Positions 2,559-17,558 of a DNA stretch of 21,123 bases are shown here, one piece after another. Source of the stretch: a candidate division KSB1 bacterium (GTDB taxonomy: Bacteria; Zhuqueibacterota; JdFR-76; DREG01); the NCBI GenBank assembly GCA_022566355.1, contig JADFJB010000084.1:1-21123 (forward strand). The letters are read 5' to 3'. The translations under genes and the position numbers were made by a program. Position 1 is the stretch's first letter, and each line of letters begins with the position of its first letter. Under the pieces are notes generated by a model. It ran no database searches. It was given only the letters and a program-made list of their open reading frames with translations, and had not been told where the DNA came from.

Positions 2559-2657
2559 ATTTGGAACATTAGCTGTTTTGTTCTTCGATGAAACCGCTAC
2601 ATTTTTACTTACGTAATTAGAAATCGCATTACTGGATTATTGATTGAGAATTGGTTT

Positions 2658-3077
2658 ATGTATCGTAAAAATAAAATGCTTGTTGTTGTGATTTTGTTCT
2701 GTTTTTTAACCTGGGCGAATGCAAATACAATCGATTTGATTTGTACTACTGGGAAATTGTGTTCAGTTGAACTTCAAAAGATTGTAGACTCTAATCAAGC
2801 TCACCGTTGCTGTAAACAAAATAATGGAAAGAATAATACCCTAACCGATAAATCCAATGCGAATAATAATCCAAAATGTGGAGATTTTTCATCAAAGCTT
2901 GAGACCTATATTAAACAAGATGTTAAGACGGTCCACACAAATGTAGGATTCGTTACGAATATTATAATTCCTCAATCAGTCTGTACGGCCATTATACTAC
3001 ATTCAAATTTCTCTTCATATCAAACCAAACTTTCAAACCCCGCTATTTTTCTCAAAAGCTGCTCATTTCTGAGTTGA
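2658..3077 (+). CDS. Small secreted Cys-containing protein of unknown function
   Basis: I do not recognise the family with confidence. From the ATG at 2658 it is 139 residues. A basic start (MYRKNKML) precedes a hydrophobic core (VVVILFCFLTW) and ANA-N, a plausible signal peptidase I site, so it is probably exported. The mature part holds spaced cysteines (ICTTGKLC, HRCCKQ, PKCGDF, SVC, KSC) and an Asn/Lys-rich linker. The spacing, with a central CC, recalls small Cys-rich envelope proteins near metal efflux genes in Bacteroidetes-like bacteria, but the match is weak. An upstream in-frame TTG at 2640 and an internal ATG at 2676 are alternative starts; no strong ribosome binding site decides. 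The exact ending is clear (TGA). Confidence 0.55.
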   Translation: MYRKNKMLVVVILFCFLTWANANTIDLICTTGKLCSVELQKIVDSNQAHRCCKQNNGKNNTLTDKSNANNNPKCGDFSSKLETYIKQDVKTVHTNVGFVTNIIIPQSVCTAIILHSNFSSYQTKLSNPAIFLKSCSFLS

Positions 3078-3325
3078 TCACTCAAGTTCGACTTAGATTT
3101 GTCGTTTTGAGTTGATTCTTAGTTTTAATACCGATGTCAATTATTTTGTTGTTTTGAACTGGCTAGTAAACGGTCAAAACCGCAGACACTTATTAAGTTT
3201 AAGAATGTCTCATGTTTTGTGATCCAAGTCAGTTCAGTTTAAAGTTCCGCTCTTGGTAACCATGATTAGTCAATAAATGACATCTGGAAATAATAGGATC
3301 CTAAATTATTTTGAAAGGAAATAGT

Positions 3326-4042
3326 ATGAATATCAAAAACCGGTTAGGCATAATTTTAATGCTGTGTTTATCAATAAATTGTCAGCCTCAACCTAAGAAG
3401 GGTGTTCATGTAGCTGGGGCATTGAGAAAAATGATGTTTGATGCGGATATAAGTGCCAAAATCGATCTGAAATCTCTGGAGAATACTAAAAATTTATATG
3501 GCTTGGGTGCACTGGCAAATTTAAAAGGAGAAATCCTCATTTTTGCAGGGGTGCCTTTTATCACTTCTGTTAAAAACGGCATGGTTAAACTGGATCAATC
3601 TTACGACCATCAAGCTGCGTTGCTGGTGTATACAGAACAAGCGAATTGGCAACCAATCGATATTCCTGAGAGTATCGTATCCTTAAAGGATCTTGAGATT
3701 TTTATATCGAAAGCTTCGGTGGAGTACTCAATTCCTCAGGATCAACCTTATCCTTTTCTCATTCGAGGTAAAGTAAAATCAGCACAGTGGCATGTTATCG
3801 ATTGGCCAGAAGGAGATACGGAGCACACACACGCAAAGCACAAAGCATCGGGATTACATGGAACAATTGCTGATGAAACAGTCGAAATACTCGGATTTTA
3901 TTCAGACAAACATCATGGTGTTTTTACTCATCATACCACTAATATACATTTGCACGTAAAAAACCAAGCGGGTAATATTGCCGGCCATCTGGATGAACTT
4001 TCATTGGGTAAAGGCATGACTTTGTTCTTACCGGTGAATTGA
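3326..4042 (+). CDS. Acetolactate decarboxylase-like lipoprotein
   Basis: The ATG at 3326 is preceded by AAAGGAAA and gives 238 residues; an in-frame TTG at 3311 is less likely. The N-terminus MNIKNRLGIILMLCLSINC looks like a lipoprotein signal with Cys19, although Asn before Cys is atypical. The body resembles alpha-acetolactate decarboxylase (BudA/AlsD). GLGALANLKGEILIFAG matches the GLGTFNxLDGE strand with its conserved Glu, and near the C-terminus HLH...GH has the exact H-x-H-x10-H spacing of the family's zinc site. The position of the catalytic Arg appears to be His (AQWHVIDW), and the C-terminal segment carrying another catalytic Glu looks shortened. A His-rich stretch (EHTHAKHKASGLH) is inserted. 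The fold and metal site are well supported, but acetoin formation is doubtful, and lipidation would place it in the periplasm. Confidence 0.75.
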   Translation: MNIKNRLGIILMLCLSINCQPQPKKGVHVAGALRKMMFDADISAKIDLKSLENTKNLYGLGALANLKGEILIFAGVPFITSVKNGMVKLDQSYDHQAALLVYTEQANWQPIDIPESIVSLKDLEIFISKASVEYSIPQDQPYPFLIRGKVKSAQWHVIDWPEGDTEHTHAKHKASGLHGTIADETVEILGFYSDKHHGVFTHHTTNIHLHVKNQAGNIAGHLDELSLGKGMTLFLPVN

Positions 4043-7575: not shown

Positions 7576-7632
7576 AAACGGAACAATTTTTATAGGTAAG
7601 CATTTTATATTTGAACCTAAGAGATGATTAAA

Positions 7633-7917
7633 ATGAATTTCTTGCAAAAAATATTCCTTATAATCGCTGCAATAGTGTTTATTGCATTATTTGCATTCCT
7701 GCCCTTCTTGCATAATCATACACCTACCTTGGATGAACCATTAAACTGTCCGGCTTATATTCTTGAAATGAGCCTAATATCTGCGCTTGGTTTATTACTT
7801 TTAGCTGCTATTGTATATCTATCATCCCACTGGCTACTTTTTGCAAATAGCCACACAAGATTTCCATCGAATCAAAACTATCCTCTATTTTTAAATAGAG
7901 CGCCTCCTCAATCTTAA
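7633..7917 (+). CDS. Small two-helix membrane protein
   Basis: A product of 94 residues from ATG 7633, preceded by AAGAG about nine bases upstream. An ATG at 7624 is also in frame but sits on that site. It has a first transmembrane segment (IFLIIAAIVFIALFAFLPF), a short non-cytoplasmic loop with HNH and NCPAY, a second hydrophobic segment (MSLISALGLLLLAAIVYL), and a basic/aromatic cytoplasmic or periplasmic tail. The His-x-His and Cys in the loop could contact metal. I do not recognise the family. It precedes the porin-like gene by about 115 bases and shares the strand with the transporter genes, so a role in metal handling is a reasonable but unproven guess. Confidence 0.6.
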   Translation: MNFLQKIFLIIAAIVFIALFAFLPFLHNHTPTLDEPLNCPAYILEMSLISALGLLLLAAIVYLSSHWLLFANSHTRFPSNQNYPLFLNRAPPQS

Positions 7918-8033
7918 TTCATTAATCTACATTTTTCCCATGTGGCTTTTGGAATATTAACATTATTCCTAAATTCAATGAGATTTAATAGTTCAACAAC
8001 CAGGTTGATTTGAACGATGAAAGATTTATTATA

Positions 8034-9386
8034 ATGTGTAAATTATTTGTGGAAATAATTCAAAAATCATTCGGTATTTTAGTGGTTTTATGTGTTTTTT
8101 TAGCAGCGCCAGGATTTGGCCAAGAAAAACAATCGGATAAGATTGTCCGACTCGAGAAAGAAATCCAACTGCTAAGTGATAAGATTAAAAAACTCCAGGA
8201 TGAATTTGCACAAATCACTAAGAGTGATTCTACAAATGATGAGGATGAAGCATTACTAAAAGAACTGGAAGCTGAGCTGGCTCCCAAAACTAAGGAACAA
8301 GAAAAACAACTTCCGCAAATTTCCGATAAAACGCTTAAAGCCAGGCAACAGGTTTTCCAGAACATGAATCCAAATGTAAGCGTAATTGGTAGTTTTTTTA
8401 GCAATGCCAGCAATCAAGATGGGTTAGAAAGAAATGTTAATCTGGGTTTGGGTGAAGCTGAATTTGCATTTTTGGCAGCGGTGGATCCATATGCACGAGC
8501 AGATTTTTATATAGGTTTCGGAAGGCATAAAGAAAATTTAGGTGGTGGGGCTGAAAGTGAAGATGAACTACATGGGGAAGAAGAGGGTGGCCTTTCTACT
8601 GAGCTCGAAGAGGCTTATTTGACTTTGTTAACTTTGCCACACTCAATGCAGCTAAAACTGGGCAAATTCCGTCCTAAGTTTGGCAAAATCAATGAAACCC
8701 ATCCGCATGCCTATAATTTCATCGGATTGCCCCTCATGTATCAGAATTTTTTCGGTGGAGAGGGATTGGTTGATGAAGGCGCCTCCTTGAACTGGTTGTT
8801 ACCAAACACTAAATTTTTCCAGGAGTTAACACTAAGTATCTTAAACGGACCTGCCGAAAATGCATCTTTTACGAGAGCTGAAACCGATAATTTTCTATAC
8901 CTGGCTCACTTGAGGAATTTTTTTGATTTATCCGATAACACATCCCTTGAGATCGGTTTGGGCGGAATGTCTGGCCCTCATAACGAAACGGGAGATCGTA
9001 CCACTATATTTTCAACCGATATTACACTAAAATGGAAGCCATTACAATTCAATAAACTCAAATCATTTGAATGGCAAACCGAAGCCCTGTTAAGTCGTCG
9101 TGAGGAGTTAGGAAGTACAATTGAAAGTTTTGGCCTTTTTTCCCATTTGCGCTACCAACTCTCTAAAAGATGGTATCTCGGCTATTTGATTGATTACTCG
9201 GAGTTTCCTGAAACAAATAAATTCAATCAAACGGCGCATTCCGGAATCTTGCAATTTTTCGCAACTGAGTTTCAAAAATTTGAAATTCAAGGTCGATACA
9301 ACACTGGAAATTTGGGTGATGATTTTTTTGACATCCAGTTGAGAGGCGTCTTTGTTATTGGCGCTCATGGTGCGCATCAATACTAA
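8034..9386 (+). CDS. Outer-membrane beta-barrel protein (porin-like), probable metal uptake
   Basis: From ATG 8034 about 450 residues; an in-frame TTG at 8010 is an alternative start and neither has a strong ribosome binding site. A signal peptide (FGILVVLCVFLAAPGFG-Q) is followed by a short coiled coil (IVRLEKEIQLLSDKIKKLQ) and an acidic linker, as in trimeric-type porins with periplasmic stalks. The rest alternates amphipathic strands and turns typical of an outer-membrane barrel (AEFAFLAAVDPYARADFYIGFG, MQLKLGKFRPKFG and others). A loop near residues 170-190 is rich in Glu, Asp and His (ESEDELHGEEEGG), and the C-terminus carries GAHGAHQY. The gene lies 46 bases before a ZnuA-type binding protein, which suggests it passes or binds zinc or another divalent metal. 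Barrel: well supported; substrate: inference. Confidence 0.75.
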   Translation: MCKLFVEIIQKSFGILVVLCVFLAAPGFGQEKQSDKIVRLEKEIQLLSDKIKKLQDEFAQITKSDSTNDEDEALLKELEAELAPKTKEQEKQLPQISDKTLKARQQVFQNMNPNVSVIGSFFSNASNQDGLERNVNLGLGEAEFAFLAAVDPYARADFYIGFGRHKENLGGGAESEDELHGEEEGGLSTELEEAYLTLLTLPHSMQLKLGKFRPKFGKINETHPHAYNFIGLPLMYQNFFGGEGLVDEGASLNWLLPNTKFFQELTLSILNGPAENASFTRAETDNFLYLAHLRNFFDLSDNTSLEIGLGGMSGPHNETGDRTTIFSTDITLKWKPLQFNKLKSFEWQTEALLSRREELGSTIESFGLFSHLRYQLSKRWYLGYLIDYSEFPETNKFNQTAHSGILQFFATEFQKFEIQGRYNTGNLGDDFFDIQLRGVFVIGAHGAHQY

Positions 9387-9416
9387 TTTAGTACGCTACA
9401 CTAATAACTTATTTAT

Positions 9417-9421
9417 AGGAG
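9417..9421 (+). promoter_or_regulatory. Ribosome binding site fixing the binding-protein start
   Basis: AGGAG at 9417-9421, with a further AGGA at 9423-9426, lies upstream of ATG 9433. This selects that start over in-frame upstream codons that overlap the porin gene. The resulting protein begins with a proper signal peptide. Confidence 0.7.
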
Positions 9422-9432
9422 CAGGAACATTT

Positions 9433-10368
9433 ATGAAAACCAAGAAAATTATGGAATCTATTTTTATCATTACAATTCTTCTAACGACTAACCTTTTTGC
9501 TGCCGATAAAATCAAAATTGTAACCTCTCTGCCTGATTTGGCCGATATTGCCAGACAAGTTGGTGGTGATAAAGTTGAAGTGGTTGCCATCGCAAAAGGA
9601 TACCAGGATCCTCATTTTGTGGACCCAAAACCCAGCCATATTTTAAAAATGATAAAAGCTGATTTATTTATCCACATTGGATTGGACTTGGAAATTGGCT
9701 GGGTTCCGCCTCTTTTGGAAAAAGCCAGGAATCGCAAAATATATTATGGCGGGACCGGTTATCTTAATGCCTCCCAAAATATAGATCTTCTCGAGGTGCC
9801 AAATACTAATCCCGCAGAATTACGTGCGCAGGGAGACATTCATATTTATGGGAATCCTCACTATTGGTTAGACCCTGAAAACGGCAAAATAATAGCGAAG
9901 AATATTTGTGATAAACTCATTGCCATTCAACCCGAAGATTCTGGTTATTTTCAAGAGAATTTAAATAACTTTATTGACCGATTGGATGCTGCCATTAGAA
10001 TATGGGAGGAACGAATGAAGCCATATGAGAACGTGAAAATCATTGCCTATCACAATAGTTGGCCATATTTTACGAAACGATTTCACATAGATGTGGTTAG
10101 TTTTATCGAACCGAAGCCTGGCATTCCACCCACGCCCAGGCACCTGGTTTCCGTAATAAAACGGATCAGGACTGAAAATATTAAAGTCATCATTATTTCA
10201 CCCTATTTTGATGATAAACCGGCTAAAACCATAGCGAGTAAAACAGGTGCAACCGTAGTCTCTTTTGCACCTTCTGTCGAAGCTTTTAAAGGAGTGGACA
10301 ACTATTTAAATCTGTTTGAATACAATTTAACTGAACTAATCAAAGCATTTGAAAATTATAGTAATTAG
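9433..10368 (+). CDS. Metal ABC transporter substrate-binding protein (ZnuA/MntC-like)
   Basis: A 311-residue cluster A-I binding protein. The signal peptide ends LFA-ADK, so the mature protein is periplasmic. Candidate metal ligands are H61 (GYQDPHFVDPKPS), H143 (NPHYWLDP), H207 (AYHNSWPYF) and an Asp near 260 (SPYFDD), which match the His-His-His/Glu-Asp set of the family. The long His-rich loop typical of many zinc-specific ZnuA proteins is missing, so Zn, Mn or Fe cannot be separated. The long helix linking two lobes (residues about 165-195) is present. It delivers metal to the permease encoded 48 bases downstream. A potential outer-membrane partner is encoded directly upstream. Confidence 0.93.
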   Translation: MKTKKIMESIFIITILLTTNLFAADKIKIVTSLPDLADIARQVGGDKVEVVAIAKGYQDPHFVDPKPSHILKMIKADLFIHIGLDLEIGWVPPLLEKARNRKIYYGGTGYLNASQNIDLLEVPNTNPAELRAQGDIHIYGNPHYWLDPENGKIIAKNICDKLIAIQPEDSGYFQENLNNFIDRLDAAIRIWEERMKPYENVKIIAYHNSWPYFTKRFHIDVVSFIEPKPGIPPTPRHLVSVIKRIRTENIKVIIISPYFDDKPAKTIASKTGATVVSFAPSVEAFKGVDNYLNLFEYNLTELIKAFENYSN

Positions 10369-10416
10369 AACGAAATGAGAATGAATATCCAGGTTTTTTA
10401 ACAAATAGCAAACAAG

Positions 10417-11229
10417 ATGGTAGAATTATTAACTGCACCAATCGTCGCATGTTTAGTCATAGCTATGATGCATGCCTATTTGGGAATTCATATCATTGAC
10501 CGAAAGGTTATTTTTGTCGATTTGGCGCTTGCTCAAATTGCTGCCTTAGGAGCTGCATTTGGATTTTTGATGGGATTTGAGTATGGAGATACAACCTCTG
10601 TTATATTGGGATTACTTTTTACATTTATTGGCGCCGCGATATTTTCACTAACACGAACCCGCAGAGAAAAAGTACCCCAGGAAGCAATCATCGGAATTGT
10701 ATACGCCGTCTCGGCTGCTGCCTTTATTCTTGTCATGGACCGCTCTCCAGAGGGTTCTGAGAAAATAAAAGGTATGTTGGTCGGCAGCGTCTTATTTGTC
10801 ACCTGGACTGAAATCATCAGGGTCTCTATCATTTATATGATCATCGGAATGTTTCATTACAAATTTCGCAAGCAATTTTTGGCAATCTCCAGAAATCCCG
10901 AAAAAGCTTTTCAGCAAGGCATAAAAGTTCGATTGTGGGATTTTCTCTTTTATATTTCATTCGGAATCGTCGTAACCCAATCGGTTAGAATTTCGGGAGT
11001 TTTGTTGGTTTTCTCATTTCTTGTTGTGCCAGGCATAATAGCTGTCCTTTTTTCTGATCGTGATTCCAGTAGGCTTGCCATTGGAAGCGCGGTGGGAGTC
11101 ATTGCCAGCTTGATGGGAATTATCATTTCTGTATTGCTTGACATACCAACAGGTGCATCCATAGTATGTACATTTGGTATAATCTTAATTTTTGTTGGTA
11201 TTTTTCGTGCGGTAATGGCAAAACTATAG
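10417..11229 (+). CDS. Metal ABC transporter permease (ZnuB/MntB-like)
   Basis: A 270-residue inner-membrane protein with about eight hydrophobic segments. Family features are the N-terminal HAYLGIHIIDRKVIFVDLALAQ region, QEAIIGIVYAVSAAAF, the coupling region RKQFLAISRNPEKAFQQGI, and VRISGVLLVFSFLVVPGIIAVLF. The protein appears full-length, so the membrane channel half of the transporter is intact. It follows the binding-protein gene by 48 bases. No ATP-binding subunit gene lies between or after them; the next gene is a PhoD-like phosphatase. The permease therefore must use an ATPase encoded elsewhere. Confidence 0.92.
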   Translation: MVELLTAPIVACLVIAMMHAYLGIHIIDRKVIFVDLALAQIAALGAAFGFLMGFEYGDTTSVILGLLFTFIGAAIFSLTRTRREKVPQEAIIGIVYAVSAAAFILVMDRSPEGSEKIKGMLVGSVLFVTWTEIIRVSIIYMIIGMFHYKFRKQFLAISRNPEKAFQQGIKVRLWDFLFYISFGIVVTQSVRISGVLLVFSFLVVPGIIAVLFSDRDSSRLAIGSAVGVIASLMGIIISVLLDIPTGASIVCTFGIILIFVGIFRAVMAKL

Positions 11230-11274
11230 CTTCGTCTTTTTCATTTAAATTCACATAGTATATTCACAAAAACC

Positions 11275-11280
11275 AGGAGG
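11275..11280 (+). promoter_or_regulatory. Strong ribosome binding site for a GTG start
   Basis: AGGAGG at 11275-11280, six bases before GTG 11287, fixes a GTG start for the PhoD-like gene. The protein then begins with a good signal peptide. Confidence 0.8.
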
Positions 11281-11286
11281 AAAGTC

Positions 11287-12621
11287 GTGCTTTTCGTTCG
11301 CTTCTTTACCATTTTCGCTGTTTGGCTTGGTTTAGTACATCCTCTAATGGCTCAATCCAATTATCTTCAATCGGGTCCAATGGTTGGTTATTCTACTATG
11401 ATGGAGGTTTTGCTCTGGGTGCAAACCAATGCCCCAGCGAATGTTCAAATCAAATATTGGGATGAATTGAGACCCAATAATAAGTTATCAACCGAAGAAG
11501 TACAAACTAACAAAAGAACTGCATTTACTGCCAAACTATTGGCAGACAAGGTAGAACCAGGAAATAAATATGTTTACGAACTAACCATTAATGGCAAAAA
11601 AGTAAACAGACCTTATCCTCTAAAATTCCAAACCCAAACTTTGTGGCAATGGCGCACCGATCCGCCTGACTTTAAAATGGTAATTGGAAGCTGCGCTTAT
11701 GTGAATGATGAACCCTATGATCGGCCTGGTGCACCTTATGGAGCCGGATACCAGATTTTCACTCAGATACATGCCAAACAACCCGATTTAATGCTGTGGC
11801 TTGGCGATAATGTATATCTTAGAGAGGCCGACTGGAACTCGATTACCGGGATTCATTATCGCAATACTCACACACGTTCTTTGCCGGAACTGCAGCCATT
11901 GTTGGGCTCTTCTCATCATTATGCGATTTGGGACGATCATGATTTTGGACCTAATAACAGCGATCGTGGGCTCTGGAACAAAGAATGGACATTAGAAGCA
12001 TTCAAGCTCTTTTGGGGCAATCCATCATTTGGTGTGAATGGACAGCCCGGAATTACAACCCAATTCCAATGGGCCGACGTACAATTCTTCTTGTTGGATA
12101 ATCGTTATTACCGAACGCCCAATAATAGAATCTCAGGAAAACGATCCATCCTGGGAGAGCAACAATTTGAATGGCTCATCGATGCACTGGTAAAAAGTGC
12201 TGCGCCATTTAAGGTCGTCGCAATTGGGGGCCAATTTTTGAACCCGGTTGCGGGATTTGAACATCACGCTATTTTTGCAGATGAAAGGGACCGGCTGCTA
12301 AAAGCAATTGAGCAAGAAAATATTACTGGGGTGATATTTTTTAGCGGCGATGTCCATCATACAGAATTGTCAAAACTGGAGCGAAGAGGCACCTATCCAA
12401 TCTATGACTTAACCATCTCTCCATTAACGGCCGGACCGGTTATTTGGGACAAACCTGATGCAAATTATCTTCGCATCCCCGAGACCTTGGTAGTTGAACG
12501 AAATTTTGCATTGCTGGAATTTTCCGGAAAACGTACAGATCGCCAGATGAAAATCACAGATTATAATGTTGATGGCAAAGAATTGTGGAATTATACCATT
12601 AAAGCGAGGGATTTGAGGTAG
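11287..12621 (+). CDS. Secreted PhoD-like metallophosphatase
   Basis: A 444-residue protein from GTG 11287 with signal peptide cleaved after PLMA (residue 22). An N-terminal beta domain (about 25-120, ending KFQTQT) is followed by a metallophosphoesterase domain. Visible motifs are GSCAYVNDEPYDRP (134 on), LGDNVYLRE (172-180), WDDHDFGPNNSD (215-226), GGQFLNP (314-320) and FSGDVHHTEL (352-361). These carry the Asp/Asn/His metal ligands of PhoD alkaline phosphatase D relatives. PhoD enzymes hydrolyse phosphodiesters and monoesters outside the cytoplasm and need Ca/Fe or similar metals. Its length suits the family. It starts 57 bases after the metal permease and is probably the last gene of that operon, linking phosphate release with metal uptake (inference). 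Confidence 0.9.
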   Translation: MLFVRFFTIFAVWLGLVHPLMAQSNYLQSGPMVGYSTMMEVLLWVQTNAPANVQIKYWDELRPNNKLSTEEVQTNKRTAFTAKLLADKVEPGNKYVYELTINGKKVNRPYPLKFQTQTLWQWRTDPPDFKMVIGSCAYVNDEPYDRPGAPYGAGYQIFTQIHAKQPDLMLWLGDNVYLREADWNSITGIHYRNTHTRSLPELQPLLGSSHHYAIWDDHDFGPNNSDRGLWNKEWTLEAFKLFWGNPSFGVNGQPGITTQFQWADVQFFLLDNRYYRTPNNRISGKRSILGEQQFEWLIDALVKSAAPFKVVAIGGQFLNPVAGFEHHAIFADERDRLLKAIEQENITGVIFFSGDVHHTELSKLERRGTYPIYDLTISPLTAGPVIWDKPDANYLRIPETLVVERNFALLEFSGKRTDRQMKITDYNVDGKELWNYTIKARDLR

Positions 12622-12877: not shown

Positions 12878-12910
12878 ATTCCCGTCCCGCCTGGCGGGAT
12901 TATCGGGAAT
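12878..12910. repeat. REP-like nested palindrome
   Basis: Outer arms ATTCCCG (12878-12884) and CGGGAAT (12904-12910) enclose inner arms CCCGCC (12886-12891) and GGCGGG (12893-12898) around a single T. It is much more GC-rich than its surroundings. This is the widespread GTCATTCCCG...CGGGAATC type of intergenic palindromic repeat. Confidence 0.75.
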
Positions 12911-12982
12911 CTTGTTACACAGGCCAATAGACCCCGATAAACTTATGCCCGTATGTTTTTAACGGGGGTAAGCACTTCGGGG

Positions 12983-13070
12983 TGACATTTTTGGGGTTCT
13001 CGGACAGCTTGAAAACATTAGAGGATGACATTTCGGGGTAGTACCCGGACACTCTGAAAGCATTCGGGAA
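12983..13070. repeat. Degenerate 43-bp direct repeat
   Basis: Two adjacent units begin TGACATTT at 12983 and 13026. They share, in order, a GGGG block, CGGACA, TGAAA with CATT, and a closing G/A-rich stretch. They look like decayed copies of one intergenic repeat. A related REP-style fragment (CATTCAGGACGA, from 13131) abuts the truncated vapC. Confidence 0.5.
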
Positions 13071-13133
13071 CGACACTCTGCAGCATCCTGCACGACGGGA
13101 CGACATTGGATGTATTAAGTTTCCTTATGTCAT

Positions 13134-15791: not shown

Positions 15792-17558
15792 CTAAATCCT
15801 CGCCTGGTATGTATATAGCCGGAAATAACGCCCTTCTTTTTTGATAAGCTCATCATGGGTGCCGCGTTCGACGATCTGGCCGTCTTCGATTACCAGGATC
15901 TGGTCGGCTTGCCGGATCGTGCTTAAACGGTGGGCAATGACAAGAGTAGTCCGGCCTTTCAATAACCTGGCAAGACTTTCCTGGATGTAGATTTCGCTTT
16001 CGGTATCCAGGCTGGATGTGGCTTCATCCAGGATAAGCACTTTGGGATTTGCCAACAAAGCGCGGGCGATGGTTACGCGCTGGCGCTGGCCGCCGGAGAG
16101 CTTCACGCCGCGTTCGCCGATCACCGTATCCAGTCCATCATCGAAACGATCGGTAAACTCCTTTACATGAGCAGCCTTGACTGCTTCTAGCAACTCATCT
16201 TCGCCTGCACCTGGCCTGGCGAACAAGATATTTTCCCGAATGGTTCCCTCATACAAAAAATCATCTTGAAAAACAACTCCAAGCTGACTGCGATAACTGT
16301 TTAGTTTTACATTTGAAAGATTGTGTCCATCGATAAATACAGTGCCCTGGTTGGGTTTCAGGAAGGATGCAGCCAATCCTGCAATGGTGGTTTTTCCTGA
16401 GCCGGAACTGCCAACAAGAGCGGTAACCGTACCGGCAGGCGCTTCAAAGCTAATATCTTTTAAGACTTCCTTGCCTTTCTCATAGGCAAAGGAAACCTTC
16501 TCAAAGGTGATAGCGCCGTCAAAACCATCTAAATTTTGTGTTCGGGATGCTTCTTCCCCTTCTTTTTGTGTATTGAGGATTTCTTTCATGCGATCAAGAC
16601 CAGCAAACCCTTCAGTGATTTGGCTGCCGATGTTACTCATCTGTACGATTGGCGCGATCAGGAAGCCCAGGTAAAGAGTAAATGCGAAAAATTCCCCGAT
16701 AGTTAAGTTGCCCTTCAGGATCATAGAACCGCCCAACCCCATAATCCCAACACTTGCCAGCCCAAGAAGCAAAGTAGCCGAACTGGTAAGCAAGCTCGTG
16801 GCTGTAAGGGATTTTTTTATATTCTGGAAAATGCTGTCAACGCCTTTCTCAAAGACACTTATTTCCTGTTTTTCCGCATTAAAACCCTTAATCACCCGGA
16901 TGCCACCGAGAGACTCGGTGAGACGGCCGGTAACTTCGGCGCTAATCTCCCACCGTTTTCGGAAAATGGGGCGAATAACAGAAAACGCTTTTAATGAGAT
17001 TAAACCGAACAGAATCAGCGGCGCCAATACATACAAAGTCATGGCTGCGTTGATATTCAGGAGCAGAAAAAAGGCAACCACCGAAGTGAGCGCCCCGCCG
17101 AACAATTGCAACAGGCCGGTGCCTACCAGGTTGCGCACACCTTCCACGTCATTCATGATGCGGGACACCAATGAACCTGATTTGGTATTATCAAAATAAG
17201 AGATTGGCAGATAAATGATGTGTCTCTGTACTTTAGAACGCAGCAATGAAATCAGGTGTTGAGCTTCGACACTCAAAAGCCGGGTTAAAAAAAACGAAGT
17301 GAACGCTTGAACGGTAATGGCGCCACCAGCGACAAACAAGATTGTTTTTAACAACTCGGTATTCCCCTCAGTAATCACATTATCAATGAGGTACTTACTT
17401 GAGCCCGGTAATACCAAACCGCTTAAACTTTTGATTATGATTAAAACCAATCCAAGCGATAATAATTTCCTTCTCGGCCAAATGATGGTTTTAAACACAT
17501 ATTTGACGGTAGATAATGATGGTTTTTTGGATTTTTTCTTTTCTTCTGGATGGTTCAT
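15792..17558 (-). CDS. ABC exporter, MsbA-like half-transporter (fused TMD-NBD)
   Basis: A 588-residue protein with six N-terminal transmembrane helices (about 30-320) and a C-terminal ATPase domain. Walker A GSSGSGKTT is at 383-391, the Q-loop VVFQDDFLYEGTIREN at 428-443, and signature LSGGQ at 488-492. Walker B VLILDE is at 507-512, with the D-loop SSLD and H-loop His543 (IAHRLST) following. All catalytic residues are intact, and it should work as a homodimer. Lipid-flippase (MsbA) and multidrug (LmrA/BmrA-type) exporters share this layout, so the cargo is not determined. GC content of this gene's ATPase half looks higher than that of its neighbours. It is probably monocistronic, and the 236 bases upstream carry no gene. 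Confidence 0.93.
   Translation of the reverse strand: MNHPEEKKKSKKPSLSTVKYVFKTIIWPRRKLLSLGLVLIIIKSLSGLVLPGSSKYLIDNVITEGNTELLKTILFVAGGAITVQAFTSFFLTRLLSVEAQHLISLLRSKVQRHIIYLPISYFDNTKSGSLVSRIMNDVEGVRNLVGTGLLQLFGGALTSVVAFFLLLNINAAMTLYVLAPLILFGLISLKAFSVIRPIFRKRWEISAEVTGRLTESLGGIRVIKGFNAEKQEISVFEKGVDSIFQNIKKSLTATSLLTSSATLLLGLASVGIMGLGGSMILKGNLTIGEFFAFTLYLGFLIAPIVQMSNIGSQITEGFAGLDRMKEILNTQKEGEEASRTQNLDGFDGAITFEKVSFAYEKGKEVLKDISFEAPAGTVTALVGSSGSGKTTIAGLAASFLKPNQGTVFIDGHNLSNVKLNSYRSQLGVVFQDDFLYEGTIRENILFARPGAGEDELLEAVKAAHVKEFTDRFDDGLDTVIGERGVKLSGGQRQRVTIARALLANPKVLILDEATSSLDTESEIYIQESLARLLKGRTTLVIAHRLSTIRQADQILVIEDGQIVERGTHDELIKKEGRYFRLYTYQARI

Follow-up and report, generated by a model that had tools for sequence, protein, structure and literature searches.

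An ATPase-free porin, binding protein and permease module in a candidate division KSB1 bacterium: a probable ATP-independent derivative of ZnuABC-type zinc importers

Layout of the locus and its host genome

The window, the whole stretch of 21,123 nucleotides that was analysed, corresponds to one entire contig of the draft genome of a candidate division KSB1 bacterium (G000: 4.62 Mb, 98.5% complete, 213 contigs). A preceding sequence-only reading had described five same-strand genes, successively encoding a small membrane protein, an outer-membrane barrel, a ZnuA-type binding protein (SBP), an ABC-3 permease and a PhoD-like phosphatase, and had remarked that no ATPase gene was located between or beside them. 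Both statements proved correct, the five genes being located in that order, exclusively on the + strand and at matching coordinates, with no ATPase gene among or beside them:

7624..7917, + strand: small membrane or exported protein of 97 aa (HNH...CPAY...NRAPP), the module's conserved first gene, DUF2946-like
8034..9386, + strand: outer-membrane porin-like barrel with an N-terminal coiled coil and the C-terminus GAHGAHQY; alternative TTG start at 8010
9433..10368, + strand: ZnuA-type (cluster A-I) metal-binding protein (PF01297, 202 bits, 1.4e-59) with a His61, His143, His207 triad
10417..11229, + strand: ABC-3 permease (PF00950, 130 bits, 1.4e-37), assigned to the ATPase-less clade by tree placement
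11287..12621, + strand: PhoD-like phosphatase (PF09423, 70 bits), a mere neighbour outside the module

The SBP and permease, which had been judged complete, do indeed cover almost the full length of Pfam models PF01297 and PF00950 respectively. The window encodes only one ABC ATPase, an exporter fusion (15792-17558), and whole-genome searches located a single ABC-3 permease and a single ZnuA in the host. No Rfam elements were detected in the window, and scans of the sequence for promoters and terminators returned no more matches than were obtained with shuffled sequences. A GC-rich palindromic stretch is present at 12882 as a single copy; its candidature as a mobile repeat was rejected because it occurs only once.

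No Pfam family was matched by the 97-aa product of the first gene. Homologues were located by phmmer upstream of the porin in four loci (L084, L085, L086 and L123), some members of the group gave weak, sub-threshold matches to PF11162 (DUF2946), and the pattern HxH...CxxC...[RS]xPP recurs 5' of the porin in many loci; this small HxH/CxxC protein belongs to the module. The acidic/His loop ascribed earlier to the barrel is present (GGGAESEDELHGEEEGG) but is not a conserved feature, because it is absent from the barrel of L002. Residues N220, H223 and H445 are invariant in the barrel alignment (A4), and three barrel relatives matched PF07642 (BBP2 porin), at values of up to 3.1e-5.

Distribution of ATPase-free loci

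Relatives were sampled initially as a set of 59, after which 388 genomes were searched and the relevant neighbourhoods retrieved; a single-protein pattern scan of the genome collection yielded one relative only, the remainder being found by the whole-genome searches. Two types of locus were distinguished, one the canonical SBP-ZnuC-ZnuB arrangement (L064-L083), the other an ATPase-free porin-SBP-permease(-permease) arrangement. Of the 59 genomes sampled first, 36 contained the latter, which was also present in 28 other families; its carriers are mostly KSB1-like bacteria and those other families, together with the named organisms Sulfurovum mangrovi ST1-3 (NZ_CP087125.1) and Vibrio campbellii LJC015 (NZ_CP050465.1).

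A total of 75 ATPase-free loci was assembled, with an adjacent SBP gene in 72 and an adjacent porin gene in 68, the exceptions being attributable mostly to contig ends, or in L160 to divergent placement. When gene order was compared in the manner that the sequence-only reading had recommended, znuC was not encountered at this position in any of the 75 related loci, nor was any other ATPase gene present within 1.5 kb of the permease. A coupled outer-to-inner membrane path for metal, with the metallophosphatase as one of its members, had also been envisaged: the porin-SBP-permease unit proved to be conserved, but a PhoD homologue was found in none of the 75 loci, and PhoD was accordingly rejected as a partner of the module.

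Phylogeny of the permease and its clade-specific residues

All of the ATPase-less permeases grouped as one clade, with support of 100/99 in one tree and 100/98 in another, and this clade was present in 100% of bootstrap trees. Its neighbours include ATPase-bearing permeases, among them those of the deeper relatives G318, G364 and G256, in which alone a porin-SBP-ATPase-permease arrangement was found. On the simplest reading of these trees, which are unrooted, an ancestral porin-SBP-ATPase-permease set would have lost its ATPase once.

Five positions in the permease gene distinguish, or bear upon, the two classes of protein; residue counts, here and below, are raw sequence counts in which relatedness is ignored:

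10489..10491, + strand: H25 codon; 76 of 83 ATPase-less permeases have His here, and all 29 ATPase-bearing permeases have Phe, Tyr or Val
10519..10521, + strand: D35 codon; Asp is present in all 83 ATPase-less permeases and in none of the 29 ATPase-bearing permeases
10534..10536, + strand: Q40 codon, at the position of the metal ligand His50 of PsaB; all 83 ATPase-less permeases have Gln
10681..10683, + strand: E89 codon; all 83 ATPase-less permeases have Glu, most ATPase-bearing permeases Asp
10885..10932, + strand: cytoplasmic loop (residues 157-172) that corresponds by homology to the coupling helix, with A164...G168 retained here

A DHD metal site has been described for MntC (PMC8487065), and the corresponding D46 and H50 for PsaB (PMC11779740). 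In each of the 83 ATPase-less permeases this site is altered, Q40 replacing the His and E89 the second Asp, the latter being the probable counterpart of MntC D94 as judged from motif alignment rather than structure. Because most of the close ATPase-bearing relatives already have Q40 and E89, the changes that track the loss of the ATPase are D35 and H25.

The NBDs and the membrane domain of ABC metal importers are joined by coupling helices (PMC11779740); IsdF contacts FhuC through an A...G pair in this helix (PMC10147376). The corresponding loop lay at a conservation percentile of 0-8 in the ATPase-less groups, compared with 52 in canonical permeases, and whereas it comprised 31 residues in 29 of 29 ATPase-bearing permeases, its raw, relatedness-blind length range in the ATPase-less proteins was 14-33 residues, with 40 of 83 off-length. 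Most other segments of the permease were steadier in length. The loop has been deleted in G051, G029, G095 and G170 and in the Sulfurovum and Vibrio proteins, and the A...G pair was kept in 34 of 81 ATPase-less permeases, as against 8 of 8 close ATPase-bearing and 14 of 20 canonical permeases. An AlphaFold model of the permease generated from two sequences was set aside (pLDDT 43).

The binding protein and the identity of the metal

The SBP residues His61, His143 and His207 are invariant in 71 of 71 relatives, the third ligand thereby differing from that of the manganese-binding PsaA, in which it is Glu. The best NCBIfam match of the SBP was to the zinc protein AztC, and manganese binders were also among the profile matches. 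The omr-znuAII-znuBII cluster of V. parahaemolyticus is induced 1033-, 543- and 283-fold under zinc deficiency, and is said to occur also in V. vulnificus and V. campbellii (PMC9817125); V. campbellii locus L197 is presumably that same cluster, as judged from gene order and species. In an earlier study, deletion of vpa1307 (ZnuAII) lowered growth with TPEN by ~70%, and function required the His ligands (PMC3794297); a single ZnuAII mutant of a different V. parahaemolyticus strain exhibited no growth defect in the later study (PMC9817125).

Zinc is consequently the most likely transported metal, so that of the Zn/Mn (or metal-phosphate) source suggested initially the zinc option has gained ground from the three-His SBP and the Vibrio data (PMC9817125; PMC3794297). 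Manganese, iron or some other metal carried by the same ATP-free module would accord with the manganese binders among the SBP profile matches and with a host that has no FUR-family regulator, but is rendered doubtful by the uniform third His ligand, by the zinc AztC being the top match, and by the induction of the Vibrio cluster on zinc starvation (PMC9817125). No FUR-family regulator was found in the host genome, and regulation of the module must therefore differ from the Zur control exercised in Vibrio. A Fur/Zur box upstream of the module was likewise rejected, both for want of such a regulator and because the palindromes present were AT-rich and unconvincing.

Proposed mechanism and alternative explanations

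We consider it reasonably probable that the module imports zinc in an SBP-dependent manner and without ATP, having arisen from a ZnuABC-type ABC importer through permanent loss of the ATPase. The gene content, the clade-wide want of an ATPase, the decay of the coupling loop and the residue changes are observed features of the sequences, and the evidence on zinc regulation and zinc-dependent growth comes from published work on the Vibrio counterpart; that no ATP is used, and what drives transport instead, is what we infer. Zinc would cross the outer membrane via the dedicated barrel, helped by the small His/Cys protein, and be captured in the periplasm by the three-His SBP, which would then dock on a permease dimer, a homodimer in this instance and a heterodimer where two permeases are encoded in tandem. 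The membrane potential would thereafter drive the metal into the cell, perhaps accompanied by movement of protons via the clade-specific H25, D35 and E89, which surround the former metal site in the membrane. That the motor could be lost is plausible on energetic grounds, because the membrane potential favours the entry of divalent cations and because metal carriers such as ZIP and NRAMP operate without ATP.

The conserved motor-less set, viewed as one old lineage, suggests that an ATP-driven pump evolved into an ATP-free one. The balance of the evidence tips slightly towards the more extensive proposal that a single, clade-wide loss of the ATPase gave rise to secondary SBP-dependent zinc transporters, in which H25, D35, Q40 and E89 would form the coupling site and the porin and small metal-binding protein would complete a trans-envelope route. 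The ATPase is the defining component of an ABC importer, and a motor-less lineage, if correctly identified, would show a primary pump becoming a secondary transporter, while the porin-SBP-ATPase-permease and porin-SBP-permease loci constitute a natural before-and-after set for finding coupling residues. For many uncultured bacteria in which searches located no ZnuC-type importer, it would in addition identify how zinc enters the cell, and it would explain a zinc-starvation-induced Vibrio cluster that is annotated as an ABC transporter yet has no ATPase.

The sequence-only reading had supposed instead that an ATPase is borrowed from elsewhere in the genome, in which case the permease would be energised in trans and the module would be a conventional ABC importer whose motor is shared, in the manner of IsdEF-FhuC. 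There is experimental precedent for such an arrangement, in that IsdEF, which has no ATPase gene of its own, requires FhuC via the A...G motif (PMC10147376), and the strongest point in its favour here is that the window's permease is among those that retain this motif (A164...G168), because of which its branch could still dock an NBD. Furthermore, when ATPases scoring at least 200 bits against a ZnuC profile (A1) were regarded as ZnuC-like (values of 298-392 bits being obtained beside most canonical permeases, and 204-248 bits for close relatives with an ATPase), 21 of 69 carriers were found to have one elsewhere, and such an ATPase is likewise present in V. parahaemolyticus. Against this, the search for an orphan ZnuC-type ATPase across the host genome returned no ZnuC-like match at 1e-45, the best host ATPase scoring only 142 bits and being located in an unrelated system; sharing with a FecCD-type importer was similarly rejected, the host having none. 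A ZnuC-like ATPase is lacking in the remaining 48 of the 69 carriers, host included, and in 42 of these (the host and 41 others) a FecCD importer is lacking as well. The coupling loop, moreover, is relaxed or deleted in the clade, and better retention of it in those carriers with a ZnuC was sought and found to be absent, the A...G pair being kept in 9 of 31 cases where ZnuC is present elsewhere in the genome and in 25 of 49 where it is not. Host ATPases other than type II (LptB, MlaF and the ABC-2 types) may, as far as sequence allows, be partners. A borrowed ATPase is thus disfavoured, and is best regarded as an unlikely explanation that nevertheless carries some weight.

Two further readings dispense with import by an ATP-free carrier. 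That the SBP-permease pair no longer transports, serving rather as a zinc sensor or regulator or as a periplasmic zinc buffer, is consistent with the absence of the ATPase and the decay of the coupling helix as signs of lost primary transport; it is nonetheless improbable given that the transmembrane core of the permease is strongly conserved (mean identity 50-60% within groups), that the protein is under constraint (dN 0.19 with saturated dS), that D35, Q40 and E89 are invariant in 83 of 83 permeases, and that a Vibrio SBP mutant is reported to have a zinc-dependent growth defect (PMC3794297). Recent deletion of znuC, or its omission through an assembly gap in this genome alone, might be entertained for a window that makes up one complete contig out of 213 in a draft genome, but the intergenic gaps are too small to hold a gene, and the same ATPase-free order recurs across the 75 loci, including that of a one-contig genome (G373) and those on the named Sulfurovum and Vibrio replicons; this explanation is thereby refuted, and its residual probability is negligible.

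Comparison with known systems

The proposed ATP-independent importer shares with ZnuABC, PsaBCA and MntABC a homologous SBP (PF01297) and permease (PF00950), and in common with them periplasmic metal capture and delivery, the permease matching ZnuB (9oko, 1.5e-12) and PsaB (7kyo, 5.6e-8) in the PDB. It differs from these systems in having no ATPase, in the relaxation or deletion of the coupling helix across its clade (the window's own permease keeping the A...G motif), in the replacement of the metal-site His and Asp by Gln and Glu, in the new invariant D35, and in its linked porin.

The gene order of omr-znuAII-znuBII (V. parahaemolyticus VP_RS21430-21420; vpa1307) is the same as that in V. 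campbellii L197, which shares with the window both the absence of an ATPase and the permease residues D35, Q40 and E89. The omr product is called TonB-dependent in the relevant papers, whereas the outer-membrane protein of L197 gave no significant Pfam match; in the available text of the open-access literature the cluster is treated as a second ZnuAB, and its missing ATPase is not discussed.

IsdEF of S. aureus likewise consists of an SBP and a permease without a linked ATPase gene, but there FhuC is present and has been shown to be required, whereas most carriers of the ATPase-free module have no such ATPase. Solitary ECF S-components (BioY, CbiMN) provide another instance of parts of ABC-type importers that function without an ATPase, although they have a different fold and no binding protein, and are also found with ECF modules. 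Binding-protein-dependent import without ATP is known from the TRAP and TTT transporters (PMC8276074), for which the resemblance is one of functional analogy only, their membrane subunits and substrates being unrelated; the membrane subunit of the module is an ABC-3 permease and not of the TRAP DctM type. The same Vibrio bacteria possess a second zinc system under Zur control, the importer ZrgABCDE, which includes an ATPase of its own (ZrgC; PMC9820375) and whose SBP and permease are unrelated to those of the ATPase-free module.

Variant permeases and a cultured carrier of the probable zinc module

At a number of the loci compared (L100-L109, L165 and L176), one binding protein was followed by two ATPase-less permeases in tandem, the first of which often had the shorter coupling loop, the cytoplasmic segment homologous to the NBD-docking coupling helix. 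Some ATPase-less permeases (L090, L092 and L093, and L085, L086 and L095) were extended by one more transmembrane segment and by a C-terminal domain, either HEAT-like or containing His, that is probably periplasmic. The ATPase-bearing ABC-3 permeases of L191 (genome G313) and L192 (genome G175), each of ~740 aa, were long fusions with a partner domain.

In Sulfurovum mangrovi (L196), the four-gene module was located close to one end of NZ_CP087125.1, a linear 396 kb record entered as a plasmid; this carrier is a cultured host that lends itself to testing.

Host genome and flanking sequence

No FUR/Zur-family regulator was found in the whole host genome, which is 98.5% complete and contains a zinc module. 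Elsewhere in the window, a Cys-rich exported ORF (2640-3077) with no Pfam match adjoined a gene (3311-4042, + strand) for a lipoprotein-like exported relative of alpha-acetolactate decarboxylase (PF03306, 28 bits), the C-terminal half of which is rich in His. Downstream of the PhoD-like phosphatase gene lay a GC-rich, imperfect palindromic stretch (12882-13110), of which the palindrome at 12882-12911 proved to be single copy when searched across the host genome.
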